DNA from: an uncultured Dyadobacter sp.
Lineage (GTDB): Bacteria; Bacteroidota; Bacteroidia; Cytophagales; Spirosomataceae
Length of the DNA: 22,586 nucleotides
Assembly (NCBI RefSeq): GCF_946482605.1
Contig: NZ_CAMLSE010000062.1
Coordinates: 1-22,586, forward strand
Direction: 5' to 3'
Below the pieces are notes generated by a model. That model searched no databases. It was not told the origin of the DNA and saw only the letters and a list, made by a program, of their open reading frames with translations. Numbering within the stretch: position 1 is the first letter of the stretch; every line of letters starts with the position of its first letter. A program made the translations under genes and the position numbers. Shown one piece after another: positions 861-22,586 of the stretch.

Positions 861-908
861 AATTGTTCTGGTTTATAAAATTTACTCGGGCCAGCATAGC
901 CCGGAATA

Positions 909-2495
909 CTACTTGTAATGGCTTGCGCCGCGGATATTGTCGTGCTGTGGAATAGTCAGCTCAGGCTGTTGATTGAGGTCTTCCATATCCAAGTTGTTCT
1001 TGAGGATGTTTTCAATCGTATGATAAGATGCCTTATGGTACAGTAGTGCACGCTTGCATGCATTTTCCAAACGCGAGCGGTCATACTGTTTAAGGAAAGC
1101 CAGGATGCCCTGCGACTGCTTATAGGCGACTTCTGGATAGCTGTACTGGCCTAATAACTTCCTGATATATTCCAGTGTACAACTGCCGACTTCTCGCGCC
1201 CGGTCTTCAAAATGCTGGGGTGACCACTGCTGGTAGGCCCGATGCGTAGAAGGCATGTGATCGGCCACAGTGGTGTAATGGCCTGCTCGGTAACTCCTTT
1301 TATGGAGGGCAATCCGGTCGTGGTTATAAAAGATCTCCACATGGTTGTGGTTATACTGAACTTCAACAGACAGTCCGGTAAAGCGGTACGGGACGCTGTA
1401 ATAGTTGTGATCTTCACTCAGGAAAATGTGGGCAGTACGCTGGACTTTGGCCCTTCTGTAATGGCGGATGCTGTAAGAGCCGACAGGTAAAACTTGGAGA
1501 TATTCTTTTTCAAGGTCCACGAAGTGGCTCCGCCTGGTGCCGCCACCATGAGAGAATAAATAGTCATTATACTCATCTAGATGGACTTTGATGGCCTTAT
1601 TAAGTTCATCCAGACTAAAGAAAGTCAGCTTGCTTAAAGGATAGAAGATCCGTTGGTATACCAGCTCGACGCTGCGCTCTACAAGCGCCTTATCTTGAGG
1701 GTGATGCGGGCGGGCCGGATCGACCACACAGCCATAATGCAGCGCAAAATCAGTAAGCGTCCTGTTGATGACCGGAGCATATTTACTGCCCTTACTAACA
1801 GCTGCCTTTAAATTATCCGATACAATAGCCTGTGGGACACCACCAATCCATTGCAAACACGATTCCAGACAAAGAATAAGGTCCTCCCGTTTCTGTGAAG
1901 CAACCGCTTTTACAAAAGTGTACTGGCTGCACGGCAGAACCCCTACAAACACCTCTACTTCAACCAGTTCTCCGGTAGATTTATCGATGTAGGATAAGTG
2001 TTTGCCACAGAAGTCTATGAAAAGCTTTTCTCCGGCTTTATGATCCAGCTTTCCACTATGGTTGTTTAAGGAGCGCCACCGGCGATAATGAAAAGTAAAC
2101 TGGGTGTATTTATAACCCTCGGGATTCTGTTGCAGGTATTCTTTCCAAAGTGTCTGAAGGGTGCAACCTGGCTTGCGAAGCTGCTTTTCGAAGTACGAAA
2201 AACGTGCCGCCAGTAGTTCGTAGCGCTGCTTTTCCGTCTGTGGCTCCTCCGTAAAAAGATCGCGTAGATCTGGCTCGGTAAGGTTGATAAGCTCGTCAAA
2301 ACCAAGATGCAGAGCCGAAAAACGGCTGGTATAATTATCAACGGTCTTACGGTTAATCTTTAACAGGTCCGCGACTTTCCTGTTGCTTAACCCCTTCAAT
2401 TTTAATGCAATCAAGCTTCGTATTTCCATGATATTGATCCTTTGTCCGGCCATGTCGCTGAGATTTAATTCAGAAACAAGGCTATGATAAATCAT
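909..2495 (-). CDS. istA: IstA transposase, IS21 family
   Basis: DDE-type transposase that binds the element ends and carries out strand transfer together with IstB. In the 528-aa reading an N-terminal HTH lies at about 30-58 (SNRKVADLLKINRKTVDNY), and the integrase core has candidate catalytic residues D161 (FIDFCG), D227 (VSDN) and E273 (ALVERSV), a D-D-45-E spacing. The start is uncertain: ATG at 2495 abuts the inner terminal repeat. The second ATG at 2453 (MAGQRIN...) matches the usual IstA N-terminus (short lead, then an I-x-x-I helix and HTH) better. Complete, with no frameshift. Confidence 0.94.
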   Translation of the reverse strand: MIYHSLVSELNLSDMAGQRINIMEIRSLIALKLKGLSNRKVADLLKINRKTVDNYTSRFSALHLGFDELINLTEPDLRDLFTEEPQTEKQRYELLAARFSYFEKQLRKPGCTLQTLWKEYLQQNPEGYKYTQFTFHYRRWRSLNNHSGKLDHKAGEKLFIDFCGKHLSYIDKSTGELVEVEVFVGVLPCSQYTFVKAVASQKREDLILCLESCLQWIGGVPQAIVSDNLKAAVSKGSKYAPVINRTLTDFALHYGCVVDPARPHHPQDKALVERSVELVYQRIFYPLSKLTFFSLDELNKAIKVHLDEYNDYLFSHGGGTRRSHFVDLEKEYLQVLPVGSYSIRHYRRAKVQRTAHIFLSEDHNYYSVPYRFTGLSVEVQYNHNHVEIFYNHDRIALHKRSYRAGHYTTVADHMPSTHRAYQQWSPQHFEDRAREVGSCTLEYIRKLLGQYSYPEVAYKQSQGILAFLKQYDRSRLENACKRALLYHKASYHTIENILKNNLDMEDLNQQPELTIPQHDNIRGASHYK

Positions 2496-3090: not shown

Positions 3091-5625
3091 CTATTTGGAT
3101 CTATTCAACTTGATTGGTTCGACATACATTGACCTCAACTCCTTAACCGTTAAATGATTCACGGTCAAACCATTATGAATCGTATTGTCATTGATATCAT
3201 TCAATATCAACTGCCTGAGTTCTTTGAAGAATGCCTTTACATTTTCCTTCAGTTTGTCAAGCCCGGGTTTCGTCATAACGAATACTTCATGCGTCAAGTC
3301 GGCCGAATATGAAAGTTTACTAGTGGGAATTATCCATATTCGCGTAACCGACACTTCCTTTCCATAGTTCAAATCAAACCAACCGCAATGAGTATTCATT
3401 TGGCCAGCCTCATCTTTATGTATATCCTTCCGTTTTAGATCAACTTCTGATTTACATTCGAACAGGAAATATTTATTATCTACTCCGCACCAAAGGTTGT
3501 CAGGCCCTTTCTTAATTTCTTTATCTGGGCGCTGGGATTCAAAACCGAGCAAAACTCCAAGCTCGAAAAGCGCACCTTCAAATTTATCAGCATCAGCACC
3601 AAAGCTTAACGCATTTAAAATATCGAGTAAGTTCAAATACAATTCGTCATAATTTTCGAATTGCTGTATCCAGTCCCTCACACGCTTGATGCGATTGTCA
3701 CTCTTATACTGTATTTTCTTATAAGATATTCCATCTCTCGGTTTCAACAGCTGGAAGTTTTTTAGGAATGCTGCTTTTTGAAGACTATTAGACTCTGACT
3801 TACTGAAATGGTATGTATACCTGGCCTTTGCTTGCAAGTACCATGCCTTTTCCGCTGGATCCATCTCGTGTGTATCTACCAGCTTCTGAATTTTCTCAGC
3901 TGCGACCTCAAATTGGCCCGCGTTGCAAGCATCATCTGCCTCTTTTTCTAGCTGCAAAAGATGGTAAACCTTGCTAGTTTCGACGTTTTGCTTCAAACTG
4001 TCCATTTCGTCCTTGTAAAACGTCTTCCACCCCTCATCACGTGTCAAGCACTGTCGCATAAGATCATTCACAACTTTCTTCGCAACTTCACCGTCAGCAA
4101 TTTCATTCCTCGCCATATCGACAACTTCCATACCTAAATCGATCTGCTTTTTAGTTTGGGACGAAAAGAATCTAGTCGTGCGACTTCCCTTAACAAATCT
4201 AATTAGATCGGCTCCGGTTAATAATATGATACTATAGTCCTTTTCACCTCTGACACTTCTCCCAAGTCCCTGTTCGATCCTTTGCGCCAATCTTACAGAG
4301 ACAATTTCACTACCAGTTCGGCAAAGCTCCTCATATTTATCGACAAGCGACTCCAAAAATGGCAATCCGTCGACTATTAGCACGCGACAGGCGTTATCGG
4401 GAAGATCAATACCATCGTACCGGTTCACAATTACTAATGTGGTGCCAAACTTCTCGTTTTTTAGATTAGAAACGCCTTCAAAAATGTTATCCCTACCAGC
4501 AACTAGTGCACCTTGATGTCGATAATTCTCTGACTTTCTAAAACTCGGGACTAGAACGACAACTCCAAAACTTCGATCTCTCGGGGGCGCGAACTGTCGA
4601 ATTATATAGTCCGTATCAAATGCATCATCAATTAAAGACGGGATAAGAATCATTTTTTCACCAGACCAAATTTGTGATGTATTAGAAAGTGGCGATTTGA
4701 CGGCATCCTGCTGAAAACCAAGCCCCTTAATGAAAAATGAGTCGTCCTGTGTTGTCGCAGACATCAAGATTCGTTGGTCCGCCTTTGAAAACGTCCCAAA
4801 TTGATCGACAGGGATTGAGTAAGGTGAAATTTCAATTTTTGAGCTTGTGATGAACGCTTGGCAGTTTTCAACACTATTCTTAATTGCTGGCCATAGAAAC
4901 TTGATAGCATTGTCATCTTGATAACTTGACAACAAAGCCGTCACCTGACTCTTCTTATCAATCCAGCTCCAGTATGGAATTGGAAGTAACGTATCATAGT
5001 GATTATTTTTTATATCGATGAAGGTTCCTTCGCCTTGTTCAACTAAGTCATCTTCGAATAGTTCGAGAAACTTATCATACAGGTCGTGTTGACGTTGGAT
5101 TGAAAGTGTAAACGAGTTCTTAATGGAATCTATGCAAGCATGAGAATCATCCAGCACTAACGAACCGACAGGAACAAAGCTCTGATTGAATCCGAAGATG
5201 GACTTCCCATTAAACACTTTCTGAACATGAGTAATAAGAATCCTCTTCCCTTCAAGAAAATCACTCGGTAAACTATTATCTACTTCATCGATAAGGCAAT
5301 ACGGAATACCAAACTTTTTTGCATCCTGCACAACCTGCTGAACCAGATATTTATTTGGGCAGACATATAAAACTGGCTTTTTGTTCTCATTTATCCTTGA
5401 CTGCAGTATTAAAAGGCCTATAAGTGTTTTACCCTCCCCAGTATGCAATTTCACTATGACGTCTCGCTTTTGCTTAAAATTGTGGAACCATTCCTCTAAG
5501 ATAAGTTTTTGCACAGTTCGTAGTGGCCCTGCAACACTCTTACGATCTAAACTCTCGTAAACGTCAATTGGATTAATTTTGATCTCTAATTCTGAGCGCT
5601 TTAGTCTTTTACTAAAATCTACCAT
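3091..5625 (-). CDS. Superfamily 2 helicase with C-terminal PD-(D/E)xK-like nuclease; putative defence protein
   Basis: 844-aa soluble protein. Helicase motifs in order: Walker A HTGEGKT at 61-67; a DEAH-box variant DDSH at 159-162; SAT at 289-291; a YDGIDLPD...DGLPF segment at about 403-423; and motif VI QRIEQGLGRSVRG at 448-460. The last two resemble the XPD/Rad3/DinG C-terminal helicase domain. Residues about 550-625 are helical and TPR-like. A nuclease-like region at about 684-725 has GPDN (D709) and then ECK (E723, K725), the spacing expected of a PD-(D/E)xK core. I infer a nucleic-acid-processing defence effector because a type I R-M system and KwaB are in the same island, but I do not recognise a named system. 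It is a single gene, divergent from the mobilization module, and no partner is seen. Confidence 0.82.
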   Translation of the reverse strand: MVDFSKRLKRSELEIKINPIDVYESLDRKSVAGPLRTVQKLILEEWFHNFKQKRDVIVKLHTGEGKTLIGLLILQSRINENKKPVLYVCPNKYLVQQVVQDAKKFGIPYCLIDEVDNSLPSDFLEGKRILITHVQKVFNGKSIFGFNQSFVPVGSLVLDDSHACIDSIKNSFTLSIQRQHDLYDKFLELFEDDLVEQGEGTFIDIKNNHYDTLLPIPYWSWIDKKSQVTALLSSYQDDNAIKFLWPAIKNSVENCQAFITSSKIEISPYSIPVDQFGTFSKADQRILMSATTQDDSFFIKGLGFQQDAVKSPLSNTSQIWSGEKMILIPSLIDDAFDTDYIIRQFAPPRDRSFGVVVLVPSFRKSENYRHQGALVAGRDNIFEGVSNLKNEKFGTTLVIVNRYDGIDLPDNACRVLIVDGLPFLESLVDKYEELCRTGSEIVSVRLAQRIEQGLGRSVRGEKDYSIILLTGADLIRFVKGSRTTRFFSSQTKKQIDLGMEVVDMARNEIADGEVAKKVVNDLMRQCLTRDEGWKTFYKDEMDSLKQNVETSKVYHLLQLEKEADDACNAGQFEVAAEKIQKLVDTHEMDPAEKAWYLQAKARYTYHFSKSESNSLQKAAFLKNFQLLKPRDGISYKKIQYKSDNRIKRVRDWIQQFENYDELYLNLLDILNALSFGADADKFEGALFELGVLLGFESQRPDKEIKKGPDNLWCGVDNKYFLFECKSEVDLKRKDIHKDEAGQMNTHCGWFDLNYGKEVSVTRIWIIPTSKLSYSADLTHEVFVMTKPGLDKLKENVKAFFKELRQLILNDINDNTIHNGLTVNHLTVKELRSMYVEPIKLNRSK

Positions 5626-7289: not shown

Positions 7290-7653
7290 GCAGCTACTAA
7301 TTGAGCTTTTTGAGCAAAAAGACCGAAAACGTAGAGAGGCACTGTTCGGGCTTTTCCGAGAGGATCTTTTTGCTAGCCTGACACGTGCCAGGATTGCCGA
7401 TATGATTAATATCAAATTGGGTAGGCCAGGGCTTATCACAGCAGAAGATGTGCGCTACTGCCGGTTTTACTTCAAGGACAAAAAAACTAGGCGGATTCCC
7501 AGAATTGTGGAAAAGACAATACGTAAGCCGGATCAATCGCAATACGCGGAGAACATTCAATCGAGCGCTTTCAAGGTGACCGATCCGGATGAAATCAAGC
7601 TACAAGACCAATTTAAGTTCGAATCAAAATTTTCAAAGAAAAATGAAACGTGA
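7276..7653 (+). CDS. Hypothetical protein upstream of ParA-like ATPase
   Basis: 125 aa, highly charged, with no recognised domain. The N-terminal half (about 1-75) is helical; the C-terminal third is hydrophilic and probably disordered. It overlaps the gene before by 14 nt and the ParA-like gene after by 11 nt, so it belongs to the same operon. Codon use and reading-frame overlaps support it being real. It could be a DNA-binding partner of the ATPase (ParB-like role), but no ParB signature is visible. Confidence 0.68.
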   Translation: MLIDEQLLIELFEQKDRKRREALFGLFREDLFASLTRARIADMINIKLGRPGLITAEDVRYCRFYFKDKKTRRIPRIVEKTIRKPDQSQYAENIQSSAFKVTDPDEIKLQDQFKFESKFSKKNET

Positions 7654-8341
7654 ATTCCATTTTATCGTCCAGGCCAAAGGCGGCGTAGGCAAAAGCCTGC
7701 ACACCTATCTGAGGGCGCTTTCCGAAGCGGGCAGCTCTTCCCTTTTTGTTGATCTTGACAGCTCAACAAATACTTCTTCCCGACAGCTTGCTTTTCTGGG
7801 ACAAGACCGGTTTGAAGCCTTCTCTCTGCTTGATAACCGCGAAAGGTTAATGCGAGATCTATTTATTGGCTATGTAGAAAGCCTGGTAGATAGCCCTTTC
7901 GAGAAAGTGTTTATGGATTTCGGGGCTCCGGAAAGCGAGCAGCTACCGGCACTGATCACTCGTGATATCGATTTAAAGGAATGGTGTGACGAGCTGGGTA
8001 TTCAGGCCGTCTTTCATATCATCATCGGTGGTGGAGGGGCATATCTGGCAAGCATACAGTTTCTGGAAAAGATGAGAGCGGCATTAGGATCAAAATTTCA
8101 GATCGTAATCTGGCAAAACCTTTTTGGCTTCAACCAATTCCCAGGCTTGTCCCAAGAGCTCGAAGATAACTGCACCACACTCGGACTTGACCTCAGGCGC
8201 TTCGGCGATTTCGAACCAGCCTCACTTTTGGGCGGACAGATACTAGACGGCATCCGGAATGGCTATGCGCTGAAAAACTATCCACCGGGTGCAAGGCTCA
8301 GGTTGAAAAAGGAACTTAAAGAAAATTTCAGCGATGAATAG
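7643..8341 (+). CDS. ParA/MinD-like ATPase of mobilization module
   Basis: 232 aa from ATG 7643. An upstream in-frame ATG at 7589 is less likely because KGGVGKS then sits at the usual ParA position near the N-terminus. The deviant Walker A is KGGVGKS at 12-18; VDLDSSTN (about 35-42) is the A' region and VFMDFGAP is Walker B. ParA/MinD-type ATPases position DNA or complexes along the nucleoid or membrane. On mobilizable elements such proteins sit beside the Mob genes and may support DNA transfer or maintenance. The next gene, a one-TM protein, overlaps it by 8 nt and is a plausible partner. Confidence 0.85.
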   Translation: MKREFHFIVQAKGGVGKSLHTYLRALSEAGSSSLFVDLDSSTNTSSRQLAFLGQDRFEAFSLLDNRERLMRDLFIGYVESLVDSPFEKVFMDFGAPESEQLPALITRDIDLKEWCDELGIQAVFHIIIGGGGAYLASIQFLEKMRAALGSKFQIVIWQNLFGFNQFPGLSQELEDNCTTLGLDLRRFGDFEPASLLGGQILDGIRNGYALKNYPPGARLRLKKELKENFSDE

Positions 8342-9125: not shown

Positions 9126-9785
9126 ATGCAAAATCAGAAAACGAAAGGCAGACCGCCCATGGAAAAGGGCACTGCCAAAAGGGAACACTTTTCAGTCTGG
9201 GTGAGCGCTGATCAGAAAAGACAGATTAATGAGCTCATAGAAAAAAGCGGGCTTTCCGCCAGCCAGTATTTCTTGACATTAGCGCTGGATATCCCTTTTA
9301 AAAAACCGCAGAAAAGATCGCTCCCCAAACCGGTCGCTGACACCGTCCGGATTCTGGAACAACTTTCAGGTATCCTGTCGCTGGCAGTCTTAAAGACCAA
9401 AGATCAGCAGATGCTTTCCGCCCAATGGCAACAGAGCAGTCAGCGTGTCCGGCTGCTTGCTGAGCTCATCACCTCATGGGTATTTGAATCCTTTGAGATC
9501 CGTAGCATAAAGCAGACGCTCGGTAGCCTGCACTCATGGTTAAATGGGTTAACCAGTTTTTTGTCGCTGTTTCCTGACGAGCTTGAAAGCAAGCAGCAAC
9601 TTATTGAAGAGTGCCGGTCGAACGCCCGGCTTGCAGGTAACCTGCTCGATAAATACGAAGCCTACTATGAGGTCCCACTATCAGAATTAGAACCGGCCTG
9701 GAAAGTAGTGAAGACTGACGCCAGCGCTGTCCATCACGAGATTGAAAGTGCTCTTACTGCATTACTTAAAACGATGAAGGTATGA
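9126..9785 (+). CDS. mobC: MobC-like relaxosome accessory protein
   Basis: 219 aa. The N-terminal ribbon-helix-helix is HFSVWVSADQKRQINELIEK followed by SGLSASQYFLTLAL (about 21-54), the pattern of MobC/BmgB-type oriT-binding proteins. The C-terminal part is helical. MobC proteins bind near oriT and help the relaxase open DNA. The stop overlaps the relaxase start as ATGA (9782-9785). The decamer array and hairpin directly upstream are its most likely binding region. The start could also be ATG 9159; 9126 is kept because it gives the longer basic N-terminus. Confidence 0.85.
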   Translation: MQNQKTKGRPPMEKGTAKREHFSVWVSADQKRQINELIEKSGLSASQYFLTLALDIPFKKPQKRSLPKPVADTVRILEQLSGILSLAVLKTKDQQMLSAQWQQSSQRVRLLAELITSWVFESFEIRSIKQTLGSLHSWLNGLTSFLSLFPDELESKQQLIEECRSNARLAGNLLDKYEAYYEVPLSELEPAWKVVKTDASAVHHEIESALTALLKTMKV

Positions 9786-10627
9786 TTGGGAAAGCAAGTT
9801 TAGGCAGTAGCGCCAAAAGGCTTATCGAGTACTGCTACTATGACAAAAAGGTTTCAGCGAAAATGCAAAGAAAGCTGGATACGGAAGAAGTCCGTGGAGA
9901 ACTGGTCTACATACAGAATCTGGGAATTAAAATACAGCCGGATGGAAAACTAGACCTAGATTACCTGATCAAACAATTTGAGGATAACCACCAGCGGAAT
10001 ACGCAGCTGACCAAATACATCTGGCATCAGTCGTTTAGCTTCGCGCCAGGCGAGAGACCCAGTAACGAGACCATAACCAGCATCACTACTGAGTTTGCCA
10101 AGGAGTTCGGGTTTGAACAGAACCAAATGCTTGTCTTCAAGCATGAGGATACTGGTCATCGCCATTTCCACATTGTCGCGAACCGGCTCGATCATAACGG
10201 GAAAAATACCGCCGACCACTTTAAGAACTACGCCCGAATCGGGAAATTCTCTCGCAAAATGGAGCATAAACTGGGACTAGTTCAAGCACCTGATATGCGC
10301 ATCAACCAGCGAAGGACACAGGAACTATCAATAACCGACCATGCACATTTGAAGCTAAGACAGACGATAGATAAGCTCTTGGATAACGTAAAATCCATTG
10401 ATGAGCTTAAACAAGAACTGGTAAATGCGGGATATAAATCTTACATCGGGCGCGGCATTGCATTCTTTAACATGCAGAAGAAAATTAAGATCAAGGGCTC
10501 TGATTTAGGGCGTGACTATTCGCTTTCTTCTCTTGAAAAGCGATTGGCTCAAAATTTGGAAATCGGCCTCAAAAAAGAGCTAAAACCAGATCTGAAAAAG
10601 CAGAAAAAACACGGCCTGGGCTTATAA
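9782..10627 (+). CDS. mobA: Relaxase/mobilization nuclease (MobA, MOBP-like)
   Basis: 281 aa. Relaxases nick oriT through a tyrosine and lead the strand to the recipient. Motif I tyrosines lie in YCYYDKK (17-23). The metal-binding histidine motif HEDTGHRHFH (121-130) holds H126, H128 and H130, followed by IVANR, as in Pfam relaxases. The helical C-terminus ends in a Lys-rich tail; it is short compared with relaxases that carry extra domains. With mobC it forms a mobilization pair but no type IV secretion or coupling protein is seen, so transfer would need a helper element. Confidence 0.92.
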   Translation: MIGKASLGSSAKRLIEYCYYDKKVSAKMQRKLDTEEVRGELVYIQNLGIKIQPDGKLDLDYLIKQFEDNHQRNTQLTKYIWHQSFSFAPGERPSNETITSITTEFAKEFGFEQNQMLVFKHEDTGHRHFHIVANRLDHNGKNTADHFKNYARIGKFSRKMEHKLGLVQAPDMRINQRRTQELSITDHAHLKLRQTIDKLLDNVKSIDELKQELVNAGYKSYIGRGIAFFNMQKKIKIKGSDLGRDYSLSSLEKRLAQNLEIGLKKELKPDLKKQKKHGLGL

Positions 10628-10682
10628 ATAAGGGTTTTCGTGAAGAATAACCTATTTTAGCCAAAAATAACCAATTGCACCT

Positions 10683-11156
10683 ATGAAACTGAAAGCAATT
10701 AAATTCTTTTCTCCGGAAGAAAACGTCTCCAAAACCAAAGCGGTTGAAAAGGCTGCACCACTTCCGACAGGTTACATTTCTAATTCCGGCAAGCTTGTTT
10801 TCCCGGCATCCGCACTACGCGACCTGGGAATTGATCCTGAATCTACCCATTTCAAAATTGGAACCCAGGAAGGAAAGCGAAAAATTAAATCCGTATATCT
10901 TGTACCGGCAGTGGGTTCGGATCAAACTTTTTCCTTTGAGAAAAGTGGCCGAGGCCATGTAATTCCATTGGCACTTATTCTGAAAAAAGGTAACGTCAAC
11001 TTCAATAGTGAAAAACTGATCTTTAAGATCTCGACTTTTGATTTTGACCAGGCCACCAAAGGCTATGAGCTCGCCATCGAAACCGAAGCGCCAAAGCCTG
11101 AGTATACCGGAAAGCCCCGTGGCAGAAAGCCTAAGGCTTCGGTTGATGCAGAATAA
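10683..11156 (+). CDS. Hypothetical protein with C-terminal AT-hook
   Basis: 157 aa. Residues about 28-130 form a beta-rich domain I do not recognise. The C-terminus GKPRGRKPKA (about 142-151) carries an RGRKP-type AT-hook, suggesting binding to AT-rich DNA. It lies 55 nt after the relaxase gene, same strand, and precedes a strong hairpin at 11169-11194. Probably part of the mobilization operon or a chromatin-like accessory gene. Function is unknown. Confidence 0.72.
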   Translation: MKLKAIKFFSPEENVSKTKAVEKAAPLPTGYISNSGKLVFPASALRDLGIDPESTHFKIGTQEGKRKIKSVYLVPAVGSDQTFSFEKSGRGHVIPLALILKKGNVNFNSEKLIFKISTFDFDQATKGYELAIETEAPKPEYTGKPRGRKPKASVDAE

Positions 11157-11168
11157 AGCTACATAAAT

Positions 11169-11194
11169 GCAGGTAACCGTTCCCGGTTACCTGC
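11169..11194. terminator. Likely bidirectional terminator hairpin
   Basis: GCAGGTAACCG (11169-11179) pairs perfectly with CGGTTACCTGC (11184-11194) across a TTCC loop, an 11-bp stem. It sits 12 nt after the plus-strand gene ending at 11156 and downstream of the minus-strand dCas12f-like gene and its putative guide RNA. The T-tract is weak on both strands (TTGATTTC on plus, ATTTATGT on minus). Confidence 0.7.
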
Positions 11195-11313
11195 TTGATT
11201 TCGGGCCACGTTTGCTTACTGATAATTAAGCTAACCCAGTTGTATGTGCCCGTCGGCACTTAATGAAACCACGGGTTTCATCCTGCGGCTGTACAAGCAG
11301 CCTCTGTGAAAAT
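11195..11313 (-). ncRNA. Candidate guide RNA of the dCas12f-sigma system
   Basis: Immediately 3' of the Cas12f/TnpB-like gene on its coding strand there are three successive hairpins and then a less structured stretch before the terminator. In minus-strand order: GGCTG/CAGCC (11298-11302 with 11287-11291), ATGAAACC-CGT-GGTTTCAT (11263-11281), and GTGCC-GACG-GGCAC (11246-11259). This matches the position of TnpB omega RNAs, which are encoded at and beyond the 3' end of the gene. The roughly 20 nt read on the minus strand from 11245 down (ATACAACTGGGTTAGC...) would be the guide. I found no second match to it within the window. Exact boundaries and expression are inferred. Confidence 0.5.
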
Positions 11314-12405
11314 TCATTCTACCAGCACAGCAACCCCAACCTTCTCGGCTTTTCGCTCTATTTTTTGTTTGAGGCCGTAGTAACCCCAATTCCGGAAAAG
11401 GAACGGATCTTCTTTCGCCTGCTGCTCCTTCTCTGTCTGATCTACGAGCAGCAGAGTCGCTGCTTTATTTTTAAGGCATATATCAATTAACCTTTTACTG
11501 TATACGTGCTGCTTGTGGGACACATACCGCTTCTCTGATCGCATCAGATGATCGATGCTGGTTTTCCTGACTTGCCTTCGGCTGGTTTGATTCATAAAGG
11601 CCATTGCTTTTCTTTTCCGCCGGATGGCGGCCTGGATAGCGAGCCTCTTGTATAGATACTCGTCTTTGCTTCCGATTGTATAACGTCTATTGCCGACTGA
11701 AACGATGATCGGGTAATCCAGCGACAAACTCGCCTCGGCAATGATATCCTGATCAAGCTGTTGCTGTTGCCGTTCTGCCTGAAAAACCGCAAGCATGAAA
11801 ATCTTTCCTTTGTCAAGCACCAGCGAACTGGTGCAAAGCTTGAGCTGACCTGCGAGTAGCCTTTGAAGCATTTCCCGCTTGTCATGGCCTGTTTTTCCCA
11901 GGTATGTCCTAAACGGAAAATCAAATAGCGAGAAATGAAACACTGCCCCTTCTTTACTGCTTCTTAGCTTCTTGACATCGGTTCCTTTAAAGGGGATCGG
12001 AATTTCTCTTCGAAAACTTGGCATTGCGCTTTCGCCGGTAGCTAACGCTTTGCTCATCTTGTTGAAACTGGCAACCAAATTTCCATTCAAGGCACTCATG
12101 ACGTGCATCGGGATACTGCCCTTATGGTTCTGAGCAAGGACTTGATAGCTGGTGTTCATTCTCGATGTCGACAGTATCCCATACTCGTCCTTTTTGATGT
12201 CAGAAAGCCTTGCTCTTACGCCTTCGGTCAGATAAAGCATTTCTCTGAGCTGCTGTTGGACGTAATGATGAGTAAAGATCTGGTTAGCGGCTTTAAAACA
12301 GATGTAGCGCCATTGGTAGAGCGTGTCGATAATCTTGTTCTTCTGATCGATGTCGTCCGAATCGATCAAAAGCCGGATCTTCCGGGTAGTAAAAAGCTTT
12401 CCCAT
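11314..12405 (-). CDS. Nuclease-dead Cas12f/TnpB-like protein (dCas12f), partner of a sigma factor
   Basis: 363 aa. The N-terminus (about 3-60: KLFTTRKIRLLI, a helix with WRYICFKAANQIF) and the beta-rich middle (about 128-212, PSFRREIPIPFK ... GKIFMLAVFQ) resemble the REC/WED parts of Cas12f and TnpB. The RuvC-like part starts at ASLSLDYPIIV (225-235), where Cas12f has VDLGIxxP: the catalytic Asp corresponds to S226 and Gly to S228. RuvC-II reads LLLVDQT (318-324), with V321 in place of the Glu. NWGYYGLKQKIERKAEKVGV is family-typical, but the protein stops at 363, before the zinc ribbon and RuvC-III Asp. It should bind RNA and DNA but not cut. Start ATG 12405, 3 nt after the sigma-factor stop. 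No TnpA or IS605-type ends are seen. Confidence 0.85.
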   Translation of the reverse strand: MGKLFTTRKIRLLIDSDDIDQKNKIIDTLYQWRYICFKAANQIFTHHYVQQQLREMLYLTEGVRARLSDIKKDEYGILSTSRMNTSYQVLAQNHKGSIPMHVMSALNGNLVASFNKMSKALATGESAMPSFRREIPIPFKGTDVKKLRSSKEGAVFHFSLFDFPFRTYLGKTGHDKREMLQRLLAGQLKLCTSSLVLDKGKIFMLAVFQAERQQQQLDQDIIAEASLSLDYPIIVSVGNRRYTIGSKDEYLYKRLAIQAAIRRKRKAMAFMNQTSRRQVRKTSIDHLMRSEKRYVSHKQHVYSKRLIDICLKNKAATLLLVDQTEKEQQAKEDPFLFRNWGYYGLKQKIERKAEKVGVAVLVE

Positions 12406-12408
12406 AAC

Positions 12409-13209
12409 CTAACGCCCATTTTGCTTCCAATGATTTTTGATAAGCTGATATGCTTTGATGTAATGCTGCTGTACCTGGGTCTGTGGGTAGCCTAATATCG
12501 ATGCGATGTCGGCAAAGGATTTTTTCTGGTCTTGCCTCAACTCAAACACCGCCGCCTGCTCACTACTCAGAATATGCCCGTAAGGATACGACTGCTTTGC
12601 TTGCCGTACCGGCACAGTCGTGCGGGGCGCTACCATTCTTTTAAGCTCCTCTATGGCTTTTTGGATTTCGCTGGTCACATGCAGCGTACTGGCTCCTATT
12701 CTTTCCGCTACCTCGCGCGCGCTGTGCCCATCCTTAAAATGAAGGCTGGCTATCAACTGGCGCTGTTTGGGCAGAAATGAGATCGCTTTCGAGATTTCAG
12801 CCCACCTTTTCCCTTCAGTGCCGTCCGCGAAATAGCTGTCCAAATCTGGCTTTTCTCCCAGAAAAGGTTCTAAGTGGTCTATTTCCGTCATTTTCCGGTA
12901 TATCTTGTATGAGGGCTTTTGGACCTGTTTCAAGAGTTGCCAACGGAGATTGAGACGGATAAACCGGTACGCATGAGGCAGGCTTTCAATCTTATCTCGG
13001 CGCGCCCAGACTTTCAGGTAACATTCGTGCAGGATGCAGCTTACCAGGAACTCGTCATTAACTAAGCTCTTGCCAATATATAAAAGGCTAGAAAATGACT
13101 TGTCGTAAAAGCCTGTAAATGCTCGTTCATCACCATCCTTAAACCTGTCTAACAGATCGACGTTTCCGCCAGAGTTGGCATGTAGCTTTCGAATTCCCAT
13201 ATCATACAT
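12409..13209 (-). CDS. ECF-like sigma factor with extra C-terminal HTH, coupled to dCas12f
   Basis: 266 aa. Sigma-2 region at about 17-95 (LLDRFKDGDERAFTGFYDK ... FIRLNLRWQLLKQ); sigma-4 at about 138-192 (ISFLPKQRQLIASLHFKDGH, then SAREVAERIG helix-turn-helix). ECF factors usually end near there (about 180-200 aa). This one goes on with a linker and a second sigma-4-like HTH at about 212-262 (SSEQAAVFELRQ, SFADIASILGYPQTQVQQHY). It ends 3 nt before the dCas12f-like gene, so the two are made together. No anti-sigma factor is adjacent. I infer that it is delivered to promoters by the RNA-guided partner. The start may be ATG 13209 or 13200. Confidence 0.88.
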   Translation of the reverse strand: MYDMGIRKLHANSGGNVDLLDRFKDGDERAFTGFYDKSFSSLLYIGKSLVNDEFLVSCILHECYLKVWARRDKIESLPHAYRFIRLNLRWQLLKQVQKPSYKIYRKMTEIDHLEPFLGEKPDLDSYFADGTEGKRWAEISKAISFLPKQRQLIASLHFKDGHSAREVAERIGASTLHVTSEIQKAIEELKRMVAPRTTVPVRQAKQSYPYGHILSSEQAAVFELRQDQKKSFADIASILGYPQTQVQQHYIKAYQLIKNHWKQNGR

Positions 13210-13240
13210 TATTGACCTAGTATTACGTCACTTCCATCTA

Positions 13241-13254
13241 TTTAGGTGCCTAAA
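13241..13254. promoter_or_regulatory. Inverted repeat upstream of the sigma gene
   Basis: TTTAGG-TG-CCTAAA is a perfect 6-bp inverted repeat 32 nt upstream of the sigma-factor start. Its TTAG/CTAA half-sites recur in the larger palindrome at 13284-13303, so the same regulator may bind both. Confidence 0.5.
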
Positions 13255-13283
13255 ACTGCGGAAAGCAGACGCGCGAAAACAAT

Positions 13284-13303
13284 TGCTTAGTTATAACTAA
13301 GCA
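13284..13303. promoter_or_regulatory. 20-bp perfect palindrome, probable XRE operator
   Basis: TGCTTAGTTATAACTAAGCA is a perfect palindrome between the divergent XRE gene and the sigma-dCas12f operon, 33 nt from the XRE ATG. XRE regulators commonly bind such sites, often to repress their own gene. Its placement allows control of both directions. Confidence 0.7.
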
Positions 13304-13336
13304 CAAAAATAACGATGTTTTTGGTTCTTGCAACCC

Positions 13337-13567
13337 ATGCCCGAAAAAACAGATTTCGAAATTGCGGTGATAAATCAAGTGAGGAAAGTCCGAAAAGCTA
13401 AGGGCTACACTCAGGACGATCTGGCTATGTTTCTAAATCTGACCAGGGGGTTTATTGGACAAATAGAAAGTCCCAAATTTCCAAGTAAATACAATATTGA
13501 ACATATCGGAATACTCGCGCGAGAAATGAACTGTTCTCCTAGAGACTTAATGCCCGAACAAATATAG
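13337..13567 (+). CDS. XRE-family transcriptional regulator
   Basis: 76 aa from ATG 13337 (an upstream in-frame TTG at 13328 is unlikely). Classic Cro/C1 HTH at about 11-65: VRKVRKAKGYTQDDLAMFLN, then LTRGFIGQIES, and a C-terminal helix NIEHIGILAREMNCSPRDLM. Such small regulators repress or activate neighbouring mobile and defence genes. It is divergent from the sigma-dCas12f operon and has a palindrome in its control region, so autoregulation and regulation of that operon are likely. Confidence 0.88.
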   Translation: MPEKTDFEIAVINQVRKVRKAKGYTQDDLAMFLNLTRGFIGQIESPKFPSKYNIEHIGILAREMNCSPRDLMPEQI

Positions 13568-14036
13568 CAAGGGGTGCAAATGAACCCCAAAATGGCACAG
13601 TAGGCCTCAGTCTCGGCCAAAGCTTTTTCTCTCCCCTGAAAGCGTCACGTTATATCTGACTAATCTTGACGATTAGATCTTTGGACAGGTCAAATCTTGC
13701 ATCAAAGGGAATTGCTGAAATCGGATATTACGCTCCGCAACGAGCAGCTTGCGTCTGGTTAAAGTAGCGCCCGGTTACAGCAGCGATTTGCCATTCTGTT
13801 TTGTCAATCTATCGCCTCACTATGAAGACCGGTCTCGAACTTTGCATTTAATTCGCCCGTAATCAATATTTCAGCTCCTTTCTTTGATATAAACGACACG
13901 AGCGACTCACTAATTATACACATAGTACAACAGTATATTTGTTATGTACAATTTTGTAGCAAAATTTAGTTCATTGGTGGATTAATGGTTGGTTAGAAGG
14001 ATTTTGGATGTTTTGGAATAGGCTCATGCGTCAATT

Positions 14037-14071
14037 AACAAGGCAATCGGATTTTTTCCGATTATCTTGTT
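14037..14071. repeat. Hairpin upstream of hsdM
   Basis: AACAAG (14037-14042) pairs with CTTGTT (14066-14071), and AATCGG (14045-14050) with CCGATT (14058-14063), across the loop ATTTTTT; only the 2x2 GC/AT internal loop is unpaired. Terminator, attenuator or small-RNA element; function is unknown. Confidence 0.6.
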
Positions 14072-14087
14072 AAAAATGAACAACCCA

Positions 14088-14110
14088 TGACACATTTCAA
14101 AACTGTGTCA
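14088..14110. repeat. Second hairpin or operator upstream of hsdM
   Basis: TGACACA (14088-14094) and TGTGTCA (14104-14110) are perfect inverted repeats across a 9-nt spacer. It follows the 14037-14071 hairpin by 16 nt and could be a regulator site or RNA stem in the hsdM leader. Confidence 0.55.
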
Positions 14111-14348
14111 CTCTTTTGGGCTTAAATAACGTGGATAACGTGTGACCAGGTGCTTGCTAGTAGCGTATCGAGGCGATGCCTACTGAAATTTTCACTGAAT
14201 GTACTTATTGCTAGTATTTTAGCTCTTTTTCTGTAAGTGTAATTTGATAATTAGATATAGAAGAGGATAAAATGAAATTAGATAACGAATATATCTGAGT
14301 ATTTTCGAGGTCTAGCTCCAGTTGCTAGTCATAATAAGTTTACTATTG

Positions 14349-18133: not shown

Positions 18134-18259
18134 GATTCTTTTTGATTGGTATGTTCATTCGCTATTGATATGCAGAACTTAACACACTAAGAGCTATATA
18201 ATTTTGTAGATAGGCATATTACTAGATGTGTTTTCAAGTTGCCCGAACCATTACCCAAT

Positions 18260-21200
18260 ATGAGCCGCTCAGCTATTCCTCGTTCTATTCAGGAAACCTT
18301 AATGTTAGAATCCCGGCATCGGTGTTCGTGCTGCTGTGAACCTGTCGCGCTTGAAAAAGCGCATATTATTCCTTGGAGTAAAACCCAGGATCACAGCTTA
18401 GAAAACTTGGTCGTATTTTGTGCCAATTGTCACACACGCTCGCATACAGAAAATTGGTCGGTAACGGTTATGCGTGGCTATAAGCAGGACCCCTGCGCAT
18501 TGAAAAAGGATATTATGCCTGCACTTTCACCAGAGCAAAAGGCGATGGTCGATCTTGTAATGAGCTTTGACCCAGATGACCTAGACAAACGCAAGCGACT
18601 CCGTTTCGTTTCAATTATAGCTGCCTACGCAGGGGTACAGATTGGGGATATTGACGTTGTTTCTGTTACGCAAGCCAATAGTTCGAAAGTAAAAGTATGT
18701 CTTCCACGAAGAGCCGCGGAGACGTTAATCGCCGGATTTCAATCGCAGGATCCACGCTTAGTAGCTTTCATGGCTGAGCTGACCGATAACAGGCAAGTGT
18801 ATCGTTTGGAAACGGATGATGAGTTATCCCTGGCACCTGGTAAACAGCCGCTTCAAGAGATAGGAGTTCTTCGTATAGAAGCGACTACTATTGCGCAGTC
18901 TACGGAAATAGGGCAAACAAATACTTCCGAGGCTGGCTTAGAATCTCTGATTTTTTCGGGCATGACTGGCTTTGGTTGGATGGCAGGCAATTGGAAAGAC
19001 TACGATCGAAATTATGCTGTTGATCTTGTTCAGTTAAGAACGTTTTTAGAAGCCAGCCAACCGGATCAAACTGGAAGTTTTGATCTGGATAAGGACTCAA
19101 ATACGCGTCGGCAGTTTTTGAACCGTATTCGGGGTGAAATTACTCGTCGAGGTATCATTGATGTTTTGAGACACGGTGTCAAACACGGCAAATACGAAGT
19201 AACACTTTTCTATGGCACACCTTCACCCGGTAATAGAAGAGCAGAGTCAAATTTCACTCATAACCGGTTTAGCATTACACGGCAGCTCCGTTATAGTCGA
19301 GATAGCGCAAAGCTGTCGCTCGATCTTTGCCTGTTTATCAACGGTTTGCCTGTTGCCACATTTGAATTAAAAAACAGTCTAACAAAACAAACTGTCGAGG
19401 ACGCCGTCGAACAATATAGGCGGGACCGTGACCCAAGCGAACTGTTATTCCAATTCAAACGCTGCATGGTTCATTTTGCAGTTGACGATCAGGAAGTGCA
19501 AATGTGCACTGAGCTCAAAGGAAGAAGTTCGTGGTTTCTGCCTTTCAATCAGGGATGGAATGACGGCGCAGGAAATCCACCAAATCCATATGGCATTAAA
19601 ACTGATTATTTGTGGAAGCGTGTTCTGACGCCTTTGGGTCTTACGGATATCATCGAGAATTACGCCCAAGTGGTTTCGGAGCGTAATAGAAAGACAGGTA
19701 AAAGGCGTGAAAAGCAAGTATTTCCTCGTTTCCATCAGCTTGATGTAGTTCGGAAATTATTGGCGGACGCAGCATGGTACGGTGAAGGAAAGCGCTACCT
19801 CATTCAACATTCGGCCGGCAGTGGTAAGTCGAATTCCATTGCGTGGCTAGCTCATCAACTAATCGGTCTCAAACATGAAGCACAGCCCCTCTATGATTCC
19901 ATTCTCGTTATTACGGATCGACGTATTCTGGATCAACAAATCACAGAAACGATTAAACAGTTCGCCCAGGTAAGGGCAACTATCGGTCATGCTGAGCGAG
20001 CGGGAGATTTGAGAAGATTTATTAATGAAGGCAAAAAGATCATTATCAGTACAATTCAGAAATTCCCCTTTATTCTAAAGGAAATTGAAGAAGATCACCG
20101 AACGCGAAAATTTGCCATTTTGATTGACGAGGCACATTCTAGTCAAAGTGGTAAAACCGCTGCCGCGATGAGTGATTTCTTGTCGGCACCGGATCATATT
20201 ACTGATCCGGAAGATATTGTTAATAATGCTTTGGAATCGCGCATGCAATCACGAAAGCTTGCTAACAATGCTAGCTATTTTGCATTTACAGCCACACCAA
20301 AGGCTAAAACTCTTCAAACATTTGGTGAACCCTATCAAGCTGAGGATGGGAAAATCAAACACAAGCCATTCCATGGATACACCATGAAGCAGGCAATTCA
20401 AGAAAAATTTATTCTCGATGTCTTGGCTAGCTATACTCCTGTTGACAGCTACTACAAACTAGTAAAAAAGGTAGAGGATGATCCAGAGTTTGATACAAAG
20501 CGAGCAAAGAAAAAATTACGTCGCTACGTTGAGAGCCATGATCATGCAATAAGATTGAAAGCCGAAATAATGGTAGATCATTTCCAGGAACAAGTCATTG
20601 CTCAAAACAAGATCGGTGGGCAAGCTCGTGCCATGGTAGTTTGTAACGGAATTGAGCGCACTATTCAATACTTTCATGCTTTTCAGTCCTACTTACAAGT
20701 AATCAAGAGTCCTTATCAAGCTCTTGTTGCTTTTACAGGTGAACACGAATATAATGGTAGCGCTGTCACCGAGGCTTCACTGAATGGATTCCCTAGTAAC
20801 GATATTGCCGACCGAATTCAGGAAGACCCTTACCGGTTTTTGATTTGTGCTGATAAGTTTCAAACCGGTTATGATGAGCCACTATTGCACACAATGTATG
20901 TGGATAAGACCTTGGCGGGTATCCAAGCTGTGCAGACATTGTCACGCCTTAACCGGGCACATCCACAGAAGCATGATGTTTTTGTGCTCGATTTTATTAA
21001 CGATGTTGAAACCATAGAAAAATCTTTCGCCAATTATTACCGAACAACAATATTAAGTGAGGAAGCGGACCCCAATAAGCTACACAACTTAAAATCAGAG
21101 CTGGATGGATATCAGGTATATATGCCGGAACAGATTGATCGATTTGTTGCTTTATACTTGCGAGGAAGTATTCGCGATCAGTTGGACCCGATTTTGGACG

Positions 21201-21841
21201 CGTGTGTGGGCGTTTATCTAGCAACTTTGGATGAAGACGAGCAGGTTGGATTCAAGGGGAAGTCAAAGAGTTTTTCTCGAACTTATGAATTTCTCGCTCA
21301 AGTGCTCCCGTACAGCTATGCAGATTGGGAAAAGCTTTCGATCTTTTTGGCTTTTCTAATTTCCAAGTTGCCTGCTCCGAAGGAAGAAGATTTATCTAAG
21401 GGTATCTTGGAGGCAATTGACATGGATAGTTATCGGGTTGAGAAGAAGGCCGTACTTAAAATCCTCCTTCCTGATGATAATTCTGAGATCGATCCAGCGG
21501 CTATTGGTGCTGCTGGCCGCCGGCCGGAGCCTTCGCTAGATAAACTGAGCAATATCCTAAATACGTTTAATGAGCAATTTAAAACAATATTTACCGATGC
21601 AGACCGCGTAAGCAAGCGAATTGCTGAGGACATAGCACCAAAAGTTGCTGCGGATCAAGCTTACCAAAACGCGAAAAGAAATACGCCTCAAACCGCCAGG
21701 CTAGAACATGACAATGCGTTAGGTCGGGTGATAGTGGAATTATTGAAAGATGATACAGAGCTTTTTAAGCAATTCTACGAAAATGATTCGTTTCGGCGTT
21801 GGTTAACAGATACCGTGTTCAGTTTGACTAGCGGAGAATAA
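18260..21841 (+). CDS. hsdR: Type I restriction subunit HsdR with N-terminal HNH-type domain
   Basis: 1193 aa from ATG 18260; TTG 18239 is a possible earlier start. Order: HNH-like zinc domain (C22, C25, AHIIPW near H35, ENL near N49, CANC 54-57, H58, H62); a 90-180 region resembling effector-associated domains (inference); the HsdR endonuclease core D355 ... E369-x-K371 (ATFELKN); then the motor with Walker A SAGSGKS (518-524), DEAH (623-626), TAT (677-679) and QTLSRLNR. It translocates DNA and cuts at a distance when HsdS meets an unmodified site. The standard HsdR is about 1000 aa, so the N-terminal addition of about 180 aa is the oddity. It follows hsdS by 126 nt and may have its own promoter. 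Confidence 0.93.
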   Translation: MSRSAIPRSIQETLMLESRHRCSCCCEPVALEKAHIIPWSKTQDHSLENLVVFCANCHTRSHTENWSVTVMRGYKQDPCALKKDIMPALSPEQKAMVDLVMSFDPDDLDKRKRLRFVSIIAAYAGVQIGDIDVVSVTQANSSKVKVCLPRRAAETLIAGFQSQDPRLVAFMAELTDNRQVYRLETDDELSLAPGKQPLQEIGVLRIEATTIAQSTEIGQTNTSEAGLESLIFSGMTGFGWMAGNWKDYDRNYAVDLVQLRTFLEASQPDQTGSFDLDKDSNTRRQFLNRIRGEITRRGIIDVLRHGVKHGKYEVTLFYGTPSPGNRRAESNFTHNRFSITRQLRYSRDSAKLSLDLCLFINGLPVATFELKNSLTKQTVEDAVEQYRRDRDPSELLFQFKRCMVHFAVDDQEVQMCTELKGRSSWFLPFNQGWNDGAGNPPNPYGIKTDYLWKRVLTPLGLTDIIENYAQVVSERNRKTGKRREKQVFPRFHQLDVVRKLLADAAWYGEGKRYLIQHSAGSGKSNSIAWLAHQLIGLKHEAQPLYDSILVITDRRILDQQITETIKQFAQVRATIGHAERAGDLRRFINEGKKIIISTIQKFPFILKEIEEDHRTRKFAILIDEAHSSQSGKTAAAMSDFLSAPDHITDPEDIVNNALESRMQSRKLANNASYFAFTATPKAKTLQTFGEPYQAEDGKIKHKPFHGYTMKQAIQEKFILDVLASYTPVDSYYKLVKKVEDDPEFDTKRAKKKLRRYVESHDHAIRLKAEIMVDHFQEQVIAQNKIGGQARAMVVCNGIERTIQYFHAFQSYLQVIKSPYQALVAFTGEHEYNGSAVTEASLNGFPSNDIADRIQEDPYRFLICADKFQTGYDEPLLHTMYVDKTLAGIQAVQTLSRLNRAHPQKHDVFVLDFINDVETIEKSFANYYRTTILSEEADPNKLHNLKSELDGYQVYMPEQIDRFVALYLRGSIRDQLDPILDACVGVYLATLDEDEQVGFKGKSKSFSRTYEFLAQVLPYSYADWEKLSIFLAFLISKLPAPKEEDLSKGILEAIDMDSYRVEKKAVLKILLPDDNSEIDPAAIGAAGRRPEPSLDKLSNILNTFNEQFKTIFTDADRVSKRIAEDIAPKVAADQAYQNAKRNTPQTARLEHDNALGRVIVELLKDDTELFKQFYENDSFRRWLTDTVFSLTSGE

Positions 21842-21869: not shown

Positions 21870-22586
21870 CTATTCCTCAGGTCGATTGTGATTTAAGCGA
21901 TCCTTTGCAAGGCTGTCGTATTGAAGCTCTGTTAGCTGAGAAAATAGATAGTCATCATTTAGCAGCTTCAGGAAAAGCTTTTTCGACATTCCAGTTGTTA
22001 ATCGAATTTGAGTATTATTCTCATTGAATTCAATTTTACCGGTTAACTCAGGATGGTTGGTGATAAAATTGATTACGTTATTTGCCGGAACTCCTAAAAC
22101 CGGAGAGGTGCGAATTCTCATAAGTTTTCTAGCATTAGGTAAATTTACAGCAAGCTCATTGAGTTGTTCGATATTCTCGAGCAACGCGGTAGCTTCTATC
22201 AAAGCGATTGTATTCTGAGCTTGTGTACGTATAACCTGCTCAAATCCGAAGAATCTCTCCAAGATATTTAACTTCAATACAATCAGGTGCCCGTCCACTA
22301 GAACAAAGTCAAAGCTTTTATCGATTGCAATGGCTTCGCTATTCAGGGCTACTAGCCGTTGATTGCTTGGGATTAACAGAAACCGGTCGCGCTTGAAGAG
22401 ATTTATGGGGTGATGCTTTTTATAAAGTGCGATTTGATTTCCTTCATTGCCAATCGTTATAAGATATCCTTGCAGAGCTTCCAGGCTGTGTTCCTGGAAG
22501 TTGAATGGTTCTCTTTCGCCATTATTAAGTATGGATATTCCGGAGCAAACAGAGCCAGTGTTCCGGCAACTTGAGCCGGTAATTCC
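21870..22586 (-). CDS. kwaB: KwaB-like (DUF4868) Kiwa defence protein, 5' end outside window
   Basis: 238 codons open to the window edge; the upstream part (toward 22586) reads without a stop through GSVCSGISILNN ... KRDRFLLIPSNQRLVALNS and joins VDGHLIVLKLNILERFFGF. That run, an 'FDFVLVDGHLIVL-N-ERFFGFEQVI' helix and a C-terminus with RIRTSPVL, HPELTGKI and KLLNDDYLFSQLTELQYDSLAKDRL, matches KwaB/DUF4868 as I know it. KwaB with the membrane protein KwaA forms the Kiwa anti-phage system; kwaA would lie beyond the window. Convergent with hsdR, only 28 nt apart. GTG at 22298 is not needed as a start. Confidence 0.78.
   Translation of the reverse strand, partial: GITGSSCRNTGSVCSGISILNNGEREPFNFQEHSLEALQGYLITIGNEGNQIALYKKHHPINLFKRDRFLLIPSNQRLVALNSEAIAIDKSFDFVLVDGHLIVLKLNILERFFGFEQVIRTQAQNTIALIEATALLENIEQLNELAVNLPNARKLMRIRTSPVLGVPANNVINFITNHPELTGKIEFNENNTQIRLTTGMSKKLFLKLLNDDYLFSQLTELQYDSLAKDRLNHNRPEE

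Follow-up and report, generated by a model that had tools for sequence, protein, structure and literature searches.

The window analysed here, i.e., the whole stretch of 22,586 nucleotides from an uncultured Dyadobacter sp. (contig NZ_CAMLSE010000062.1), carries on its reverse strand two genes only 3 nt apart: one coding for a 266-aa ECF-like sigma factor (12409–13209) and, directly downstream, one coding for a 363-aa nuclease-dead Cas12f, or dCas12f (11314–12405), identified by its homology to solved dCas12f proteins. This tight, co-directional arrangement of a sigma factor and a Cas12f/TnpB-like gene had been pointed out in a first-pass annotation of the DNA and was found exactly so. Residues 4–362 of dCas12f aligned to residues 6–364 of chain 9n9c_A (E = 2e-107), i.e., near full length. 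Its closest solved relatives (PDB 9n9c, 9n9m, 9n9o and 9n9q, labelled “nuclease-deactivated Cas12f”) are 42–45% identical to it, and we take them to represent the dCas12f-sigmaE system of Flagellimonas taeanensis. A fold comparison also placed the window protein with the solved dCas12f family. Its best relatives are dCas12f and Cas12f, and the 363-aa protein is Cas12f-like by both sequence and fold, in keeping with the TnpB/Cas12-like identity first given to it. The sigma factor, which has a second sigma-4-like stretch at its C-terminus (two Pfam Sigma70_r4 stretches), matched the RpoE chain 9n9q_C over residues 22–260 (E = 2.4e-31). The nearest solved relatives of both window proteins are chains of one PDB entry, 9n9q.

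All three RuvC residues have been lost from the window dCas12f (A225, V321 and a RuvC-III region that is absent). The corresponding columns, presumably the catalytic ones from what is generally known of RuvC, were located through a HMMER alignment with the Cas12f 9nzo. When the window protein was aligned with 81 relatives, the RuvC-I Asp was replaced by Ala in 81 sequences and by Ile in one, and the RuvC-II Glu by Val, Leu, Met or Ile in 81 of 81, one further sequence having a gap. At no more than 374 aa, the 78 full-length members are too short to include RuvC-III and the zinc ribbon. The lack of recognisable catalytic residues claimed earlier for the window nuclease was thus found across the alignment, the RuvC-I Asp being absent from all 82 members and the RuvC-II Glu from all 81 with a residue at that column. 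Unlike the active AsCas12f, Al3Cas12f and CnCas12f, the window protein has neither the catalytic Asp/Glu nor the C-terminal zinc finger, and the intact RuvC D/E/D of a Type V-F CRISPR-Cas nuclease is missing from it.

In GTDB genomes we found 244 dCas12f relatives and retained the best 80 of them, corresponding to 79 loci of Dyadobacter, Pedobacter, Sphingobacterium, Parapedobacter, Mucilaginibacter, Chitinophaga, Flavobacteriaceae and others. In 77 of the 79, as in the window, dCas12f had a sigma factor ORF directly upstream, so that the co-occurrence in other genomes on which the first-pass annotation had made its reading hinge is the rule. The exceptions were L031, where the sigma factor is 466 bp away, and L069, at a contig edge. 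In viral contigs there were two more distant dCas12f homologues (40 and 32% identity; L080 and L081) without a sigma factor. Named plasmids gave a single match of 24% identity and phages none, and the carriage of the module by either was dropped as a candidate.

The conserved pairing bears on the possibility that dCas12f is a TldR-like RNA-guided repressor that blocks transcription, the sigma factor being a separate regulator within a shared operon. TldR proteins have, to our knowledge, no sigma partner. In PMC13418256 they are described as nuclease-dead TnpB-like RNA-guided repressors, and the window protein would resemble them in its dead RuvC and in RNA-guided DNA binding. However, it is nearest to Cas12f rather than to TnpB, it has a sigma partner conserved over several families, and the closest solved relatives of the two proteins share a PDB entry, all of which makes a repressor improbable.

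Neighbourhood and island context

Upstream of the pair and divergent from it we found an XRE/HTH_3 regulator (13328–13567, forward strand, likely start ATG at 13337; PF01381, E = 1.7e-6), and XRE homologues or other XRE-like ORFs adjoin the module in relatives. The palindrome TGCTTAGTTATAACTAAGCA (13284–13303), located between this gene and the sigma factor, is a probable XRE operator. L002, L008 and L011 have kept it unaltered, and L004 and L006 differ from it by a single change. Small changes included, there are three palindrome types in Dyadobacter, each with different XRE-like proteins: the TGCTTAGTTATAACTAAGCA type in the window and in those five loci, the AGTACACACATGTGTGTC.. type in L001, L003, L007, L010, L012 and L014, and the AAGTGGGTTATAACTCAC.. 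type in L005, L009, L013 and L036. The corresponding region of L015 fell outside all three.

On the other side, a convergent gene (10683–11156, forward strand) codes for a 157-aa protein with no Pfam or NCBIfam match that is conserved in the closest loci (8 of 81, 83–94% identity). It is preceded, on the same strand, by a ParA-like ATPase (7589–8341; CbiA/ParA-type match below the Pfam cut-off), a NikA/MobC-like relaxosome protein (9126–9785; PF21983, E = 1.5e-6) and a MobA/VirD2-type relaxase (9782–10627; PF03432, E = 5.9e-29). The order of these four genes recurs on the guide RNA side of L001–L003, L005, L006 and L010, and the ParA-like ATPase is 91–95% identical in L001–L003. Among the 81 loci, ParA was found in 9, NikA/MobC in 11 and the relaxase in 17, several at 25–28% identity only. 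The window genes beyond XRE (type I R-M, KwaB) are not repeated in those six loci: HsdM was found in two other loci, HsdS in one, and HsdR and KwaB in none. Beyond its XRE gene, L003 has an ArdA antirestriction gene (by Pfam), and ORFs that read like it were seen in L001, L005 and L006. The first-pass annotation had placed the module between a mobilization module and a type I R-M/KwaB island; the mobilisation side of this picture is conserved in the closest loci, but the R-M/KwaB side is not. The gene content suggests that the module region is a mobilisable island with variable cargo.

Several other genes of the window deserve mention. A DEAD/ResIII helicase (3091–5625, reverse strand) gave a full-length match to the PADLOC candidate defence family PDC-S28 (1063 bits). 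An HsdR-like protein (18239–21841, forward strand) has an N-terminal HNH domain followed by HSDR_N and SWI2/SNF2, an order that seems unusual for a type I restriction subunit. The match of the ORF at 21870–22298 (reverse strand) to KwaB is confined to the C-terminal half (178–317 of 320); the N-terminal half is outside this ORF, and the gene may be broken or otherwise placed near the window end. At the left end there is an IstB/IstA-like pair (123–2495, reverse strand; IS21 type, by reading), with a homologous pair in L032.

The guide RNA

Nine nucleotides past the dCas12f stop, on the same strand, starts a guide RNA whose scaffold (11239–11304) begins with GAGGCTGCTTGTACAGCC..., has three stems and ends in ..TACAAC (..CACATACAAC). 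It is followed by the guide TGGGTTAGCTTAATT (11224–11238), 15 nt that are kept in the clade, with a putative 3' end. A GC-rich, terminator-like hairpin predicted from sequence and fold (11169–11194) is located between the convergent guide RNA and 157-aa ORF. The guide RNA region folds more stably than its shuffles (z = -4.8); it had no match in Rfam, and no CRISPR-like array was found within 10600–14320 of the window. In an alignment of 44 scaffolds (A4), 96.3% of the cells were paired, 82 cells had changed on both sides (25.7 in shuffles) and the covariation score was 0.424 vs. 0.190, a value reached by 0 of 500 shuffles, which ignore kinship; the pairs with changes on both sides were 8 vs. 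6.5, reached by 37 of 500. The model built from A4 (R2) matched the window with 73.3 bits (E = 1e-15), the window sequence being one of the 44 used in training. It matched 75 of 82 loci at E ≤ 0.01, of which 37 had supplied training sequences and 38 had not; L028, the Allomuricauda (Flagellimonas) taeanensis locus, was matched from outside the training set. Seven loci gave no match. In L008, L009, L011 and L065 the sequence breaks off within dCas12f or right at its end, which is not the case in L078, L080 and L081.

The scaffold also appears upstream of the sigma factor in several Sphingobacterium loci (L047, L053, L054, L061 and L062), and some loci have multiple guide RNA units: two in L013 and L036, six in L056 and ten in L016, with a second unit in L014 found by pattern only. 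Tandem units with differing guides occupy 11102–11279 of L013, 11102–11277 of L014 and 11101–11275 of L036, three loci without a match to the window 157-aa gene. Many tandem units were seen in L016 (5299–7085), L017 (11096–12586) and L056 (11092–11732), and L016 and L017 contain short repeats like ATTTGAAAGGTATATACAAC that resemble CRISPR array remnants.

Within Dyadobacter, 16 guide RNA matches were found in nine of ten genomes, 15 of them adjoining dCas12f. One guide RNA gene of the window type (G005:C41:469-537; L174, L098) has no dCas12f in the surrounding 2 kb; either it is an orphan or the assembly is broken there. Ten guide RNA genes from six genomes (L001–L007, L010, L089 and L259) share the first 15 guide nucleotides with the window, and the sequence after these varies. 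Such constancy has to be set against the view that the locus is a decaying TnpB/Cas12f relic next to an ordinary ECF sigma factor, with no RNA-guided function. The lost RuvC residues and C-terminus would fit decay, as would a window guide that lacks an exact chromosomal target in relatives. Yet the frame is open, the guide RNA has been retained with compensatory changes in its scaffold, and dCas12f has many invariant columns over the whole protein (17 sequences aligned), so we consider a relic very unlikely and a working RNA-guided partner of the sigma factor by far the better account.

The leader element and the targets of the guides

The clearest guide targets came from Flavobacteriaceae. 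We searched 14 genomes (15 loci, minus L035) for the guide GCGTGGGCTCTCTTAT with up to one mismatch and found 38 places in 13 of them, compared to one for the reversed control. Thirty of the 38 were inspected: 15 were guide RNA genes and 15 were other sites, in 10 genomes, that sit in one conserved element of ~130 bp. Position -1 was G in all 15 non-guide sites and C or T in the guide RNA genes. The G agrees with the 5'-G motif reportedly described for dCas12f targets in a 2025 preprint; since these sites are all copies of a single element, their G's do not count as independent evidence. Downstream we found an ORF of the SusC/TonB-plug type at nine sites (L111, L121, L123, L125, L127, L129, L130, L133 and L137; called by reading the translations, L137 being SusC/RagA-like by Pfam and NCBIfam), the sigma-dCas12f operon itself at three (L128, L134 and L136), and another ORF or the contig end at three (L119, L131 and L132). 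The target sites read in relatives precede the genes by a few hundred bp, which speaks further against a dCas12f that blocks transcription.

The second guide type of this group, that of Allomuricauda/Flagellimonas taeanensis (TTGTGGGATACACG...; L028, L034, L037 and L040), had no match in the element, but in these leaders it fits a second site, downstream of the first, with 13–15 of 16 positions in 9 of the 20 loci compared (L133, L137, L111, L200, L201, L212, L202, L206 and L213), always preceded by G. The fits of 10–12 of 16 in the other 11 loci were taken as background, in a comparison made without a shuffled control. Six of the nine matched loci are in genomes with that guide and three in genomes with the other. 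With the element site and the downstream site both matched, two kinds of guide therefore appear to aim at the same set of leaders.

By covariation, the element has the character of a structured RNA. An alignment of 22 sequences (A3: the 15 Flavobacteriaceae sites plus seven Dyadobacter sites found by pattern) supports four nested helices, in which both partners have changed in 16 of 28 pairs (65 doubly changed cells vs. 19.8 in shuffles) and the covariation score is 0.294 vs. 0.111, reached by 0 of 500 shuffles; helix 3 was only 67% paired. An alternative pairing, incompatible with part of this fold, joins the target GGCGTGGGCTC.CTTATCG with CGATAAG.GAG..CCACGCC, the latter directly before a T-rich sequence. 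It is 91% paired, with weaker covariation (0.169 vs. 0.138; both-side pairs 4 vs. 2.9), and is possibly a terminator arm. Natural alleles of the element include TGGGTTTGCTTA and TGGGCAAACTTA. Over 23 of these loci the element matched nothing in Rfam at E ≤ 1 (the sole match at that level was a group II intron, below cut-off, elsewhere in L119), and a text search for such a leader returned nothing fitting among the matches listed. A search of 42 loci located the element just upstream of the sigma factor in 13, one of them L028 and three of them part of A3; the 16 Dyadobacter loci in this set all lacked it there. A model built from A3 (R1) found no element in the window, with nothing below E 1.2.

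The matched segment of the leader is the 5' arm of the possible GC-rich hairpin that precedes the T-rich sequence, which makes the 3' arm a partial complement of the guide, and it could be imagined that it acts on RNA, as an antiterminator pairing with that arm in SusC leaders with dCas12f as an RNA chaperone; this is highly improbable, as the exact matches are to 5'-arm DNA with G at -1, as expected of a DNA target, the G is kept although the register shifts by 3 nt between Flavobacteriaceae and Dyadobacter, and a solved complex of the family contains DNA with a partial R-loop.

R1 found the element in 9 of 10 dCas12f-carrying Dyadobacter genomes and, outside the genus, in 12 of 15 genomes. 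Of 48 Dyadobacter genomes scanned, 12 had dCas12f, 20 the element and 11 both (Fisher p = 7e-5, with kinship not corrected and 70 candidates scored per genome). Among the listed elements, 22 of 26 precede an ORF starting like MKxxYCSPGK/MNxRFCSPGK, at 332–509 bp from the match start except for L253 (1067); those without such an ORF are L245, L164, L248 and L249. By Pfam/NCBIfam, examples downstream are SusC/RagA-like (L148) and thioredoxin/TlpA-like (L150 and L244). Weak and distinct R1 matches were also seen, GATATACGTGGGCGTTGCTTTG in L248 and L249 and GATTTACGTGGGCG in L164, where the next genes are unlike SusC or TlpA.

When each Dyadobacter guide was compared to the element of its own genome at the homologous site, behind GGCG, the fit was 12 of 12 in G009 (guide TGGGTTCGGCTT) and in G075, which has three dCas12f copies with the same guide; the elements of both genomes are outside A3. 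G010 (second guide) and G055 had 11 of 12, G001–G003 had 9, G008 had 8, and G005 and G007 had 7. When guides and elements were permuted among 10 genomes, the own sum was 95 against a mean of 85.1, with 1094 of 20000 as high or higher, i.e., the agreement is suggestive and not significant. In relatives, some guides thus match this multicopy element over 16 or 12 nt with G before them, and the element is a target of some Dyadobacter guides. The rule is not universal, because the guides of Pedobacter, Puia, Empedobacter stercoris and others gave no convincing match to the R1 elements of their own genomes, where the model, with 70–150 candidates scored per genome, may overlook some.

The guide of the window is carried by G001–G005 and G055, and five of these supplied fits listed above; in G004, which has dCas12f and a window-type guide, R1 found no element. 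The exact 14-mer GGGTTAGCTTAATT occurred at nine places in 10 genomes, every one a guide RNA gene. Beyond the nine guide RNA genes, GTGGGTTAGCTTAATT with up to two mismatches gave eight matches in six genomes (17 for the reversed control) and GTGGGTTAGCTTA (G plus the first 12 nt), with at most one mismatch, 11 in five genomes (49 for the reversed control). The pattern GTGGGTTN{1,2}GCTTA gave eight matches in 10 genomes vs. 13 in the control, two of the eight falling in the structured element. Over 48 Dyadobacter genomes, GTGGGTTAGCTTAA had two exact matches, none in the element, and its control had none; one match (exact G plus 13 nt) is inside a 757-aa ORF of G055, which has the window's guide, and we estimate from base counts that about three would be expected by chance. 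In viral contigs GTGGGTTAGCTTAATT matched eight stretches with no recognisable link (ORFs read by eye). Among the sequences searched, the leader element is the best candidate for the target of the window's guide, at the level of a candidate rather than an established target.

Interpretation and significance

Because the proteins observed, their pairing and the guide RNA fit, we assign the locus with high confidence to dCas12f-sigmaE RNA-guided transcription. The first-pass annotation had read it as a dead RNA-guided protein that brings a dedicated sigma factor, and the solved homologues, the recurrent pairing and the guide RNA all support this. Systems of this kind are said to be described in 2025 preprints by Hoffmann et al. 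and Xiao et al. We infer binding, sigma recruitment and transcription by the window copy from the solved homologue. The sigma factor and dCas12f would be expressed from one operon, probably repressed by the XRE regulator through the palindrome, and the guide RNA would be released from the operon's 3' end. The dCas12f-guide complex would bind DNA without cutting it and hold the sigma factor, which would bring RNA polymerase so that transcription starts next to the R-loop and not at a sequence-encoded promoter; this promoter-free start is modelled on the solved homologue and on what the two preprints reportedly describe. Since the guides of several relatives aim at their leader element, the window copy most likely switches envelope genes of the SusC/TlpA type.

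The likeness to the solved dCas12f-sigmaE system extends to both proteins (near full length for dCas12f), the truncated dead RuvC, the sigma gene upstream in the operon, the scaffold family (shared with L028) and the 5'-G at the targets of relatives. In contrast, the window copy differs in its Dyadobacter host, its guide and the relaxase genes alongside; a leader element before the operon is missing from it, as from the 16 Dyadobacter loci searched, and a palindrome and divergent XRE gene are present instead. A literature search for dCas12f with a sigma factor gave nothing among the matches listed. The structured leader element as a shared target and the island context may go beyond what is known. 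A tentative picture, which we hold to be possible and rather doubtful as a whole, is that of a mobilisable island with defence cargo whose XRE-controlled dCas12f-sigma pair would start transcription inside the SusC/TlpA leader of the host (perhaps an attenuator), past the 5' arm of a terminator-like hairpin, with the outer-membrane uptake genes escaping their native control; the element would be an RNA family absent from Rfam, common to the regulon and to the sigma-dCas12f operon of other genera.

Judged from sequence, RNA-guided transcription reaches Dyadobacter. In one clade the dCas12f-sigma module adjoins relaxase and partition genes, so that switches of this kind may pass from host to host. 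Targets can be searched for with the guide RNA and its family model, and with a guide-matched leader element before SusC and TlpA-like genes the question of which genes are controlled becomes directly testable.
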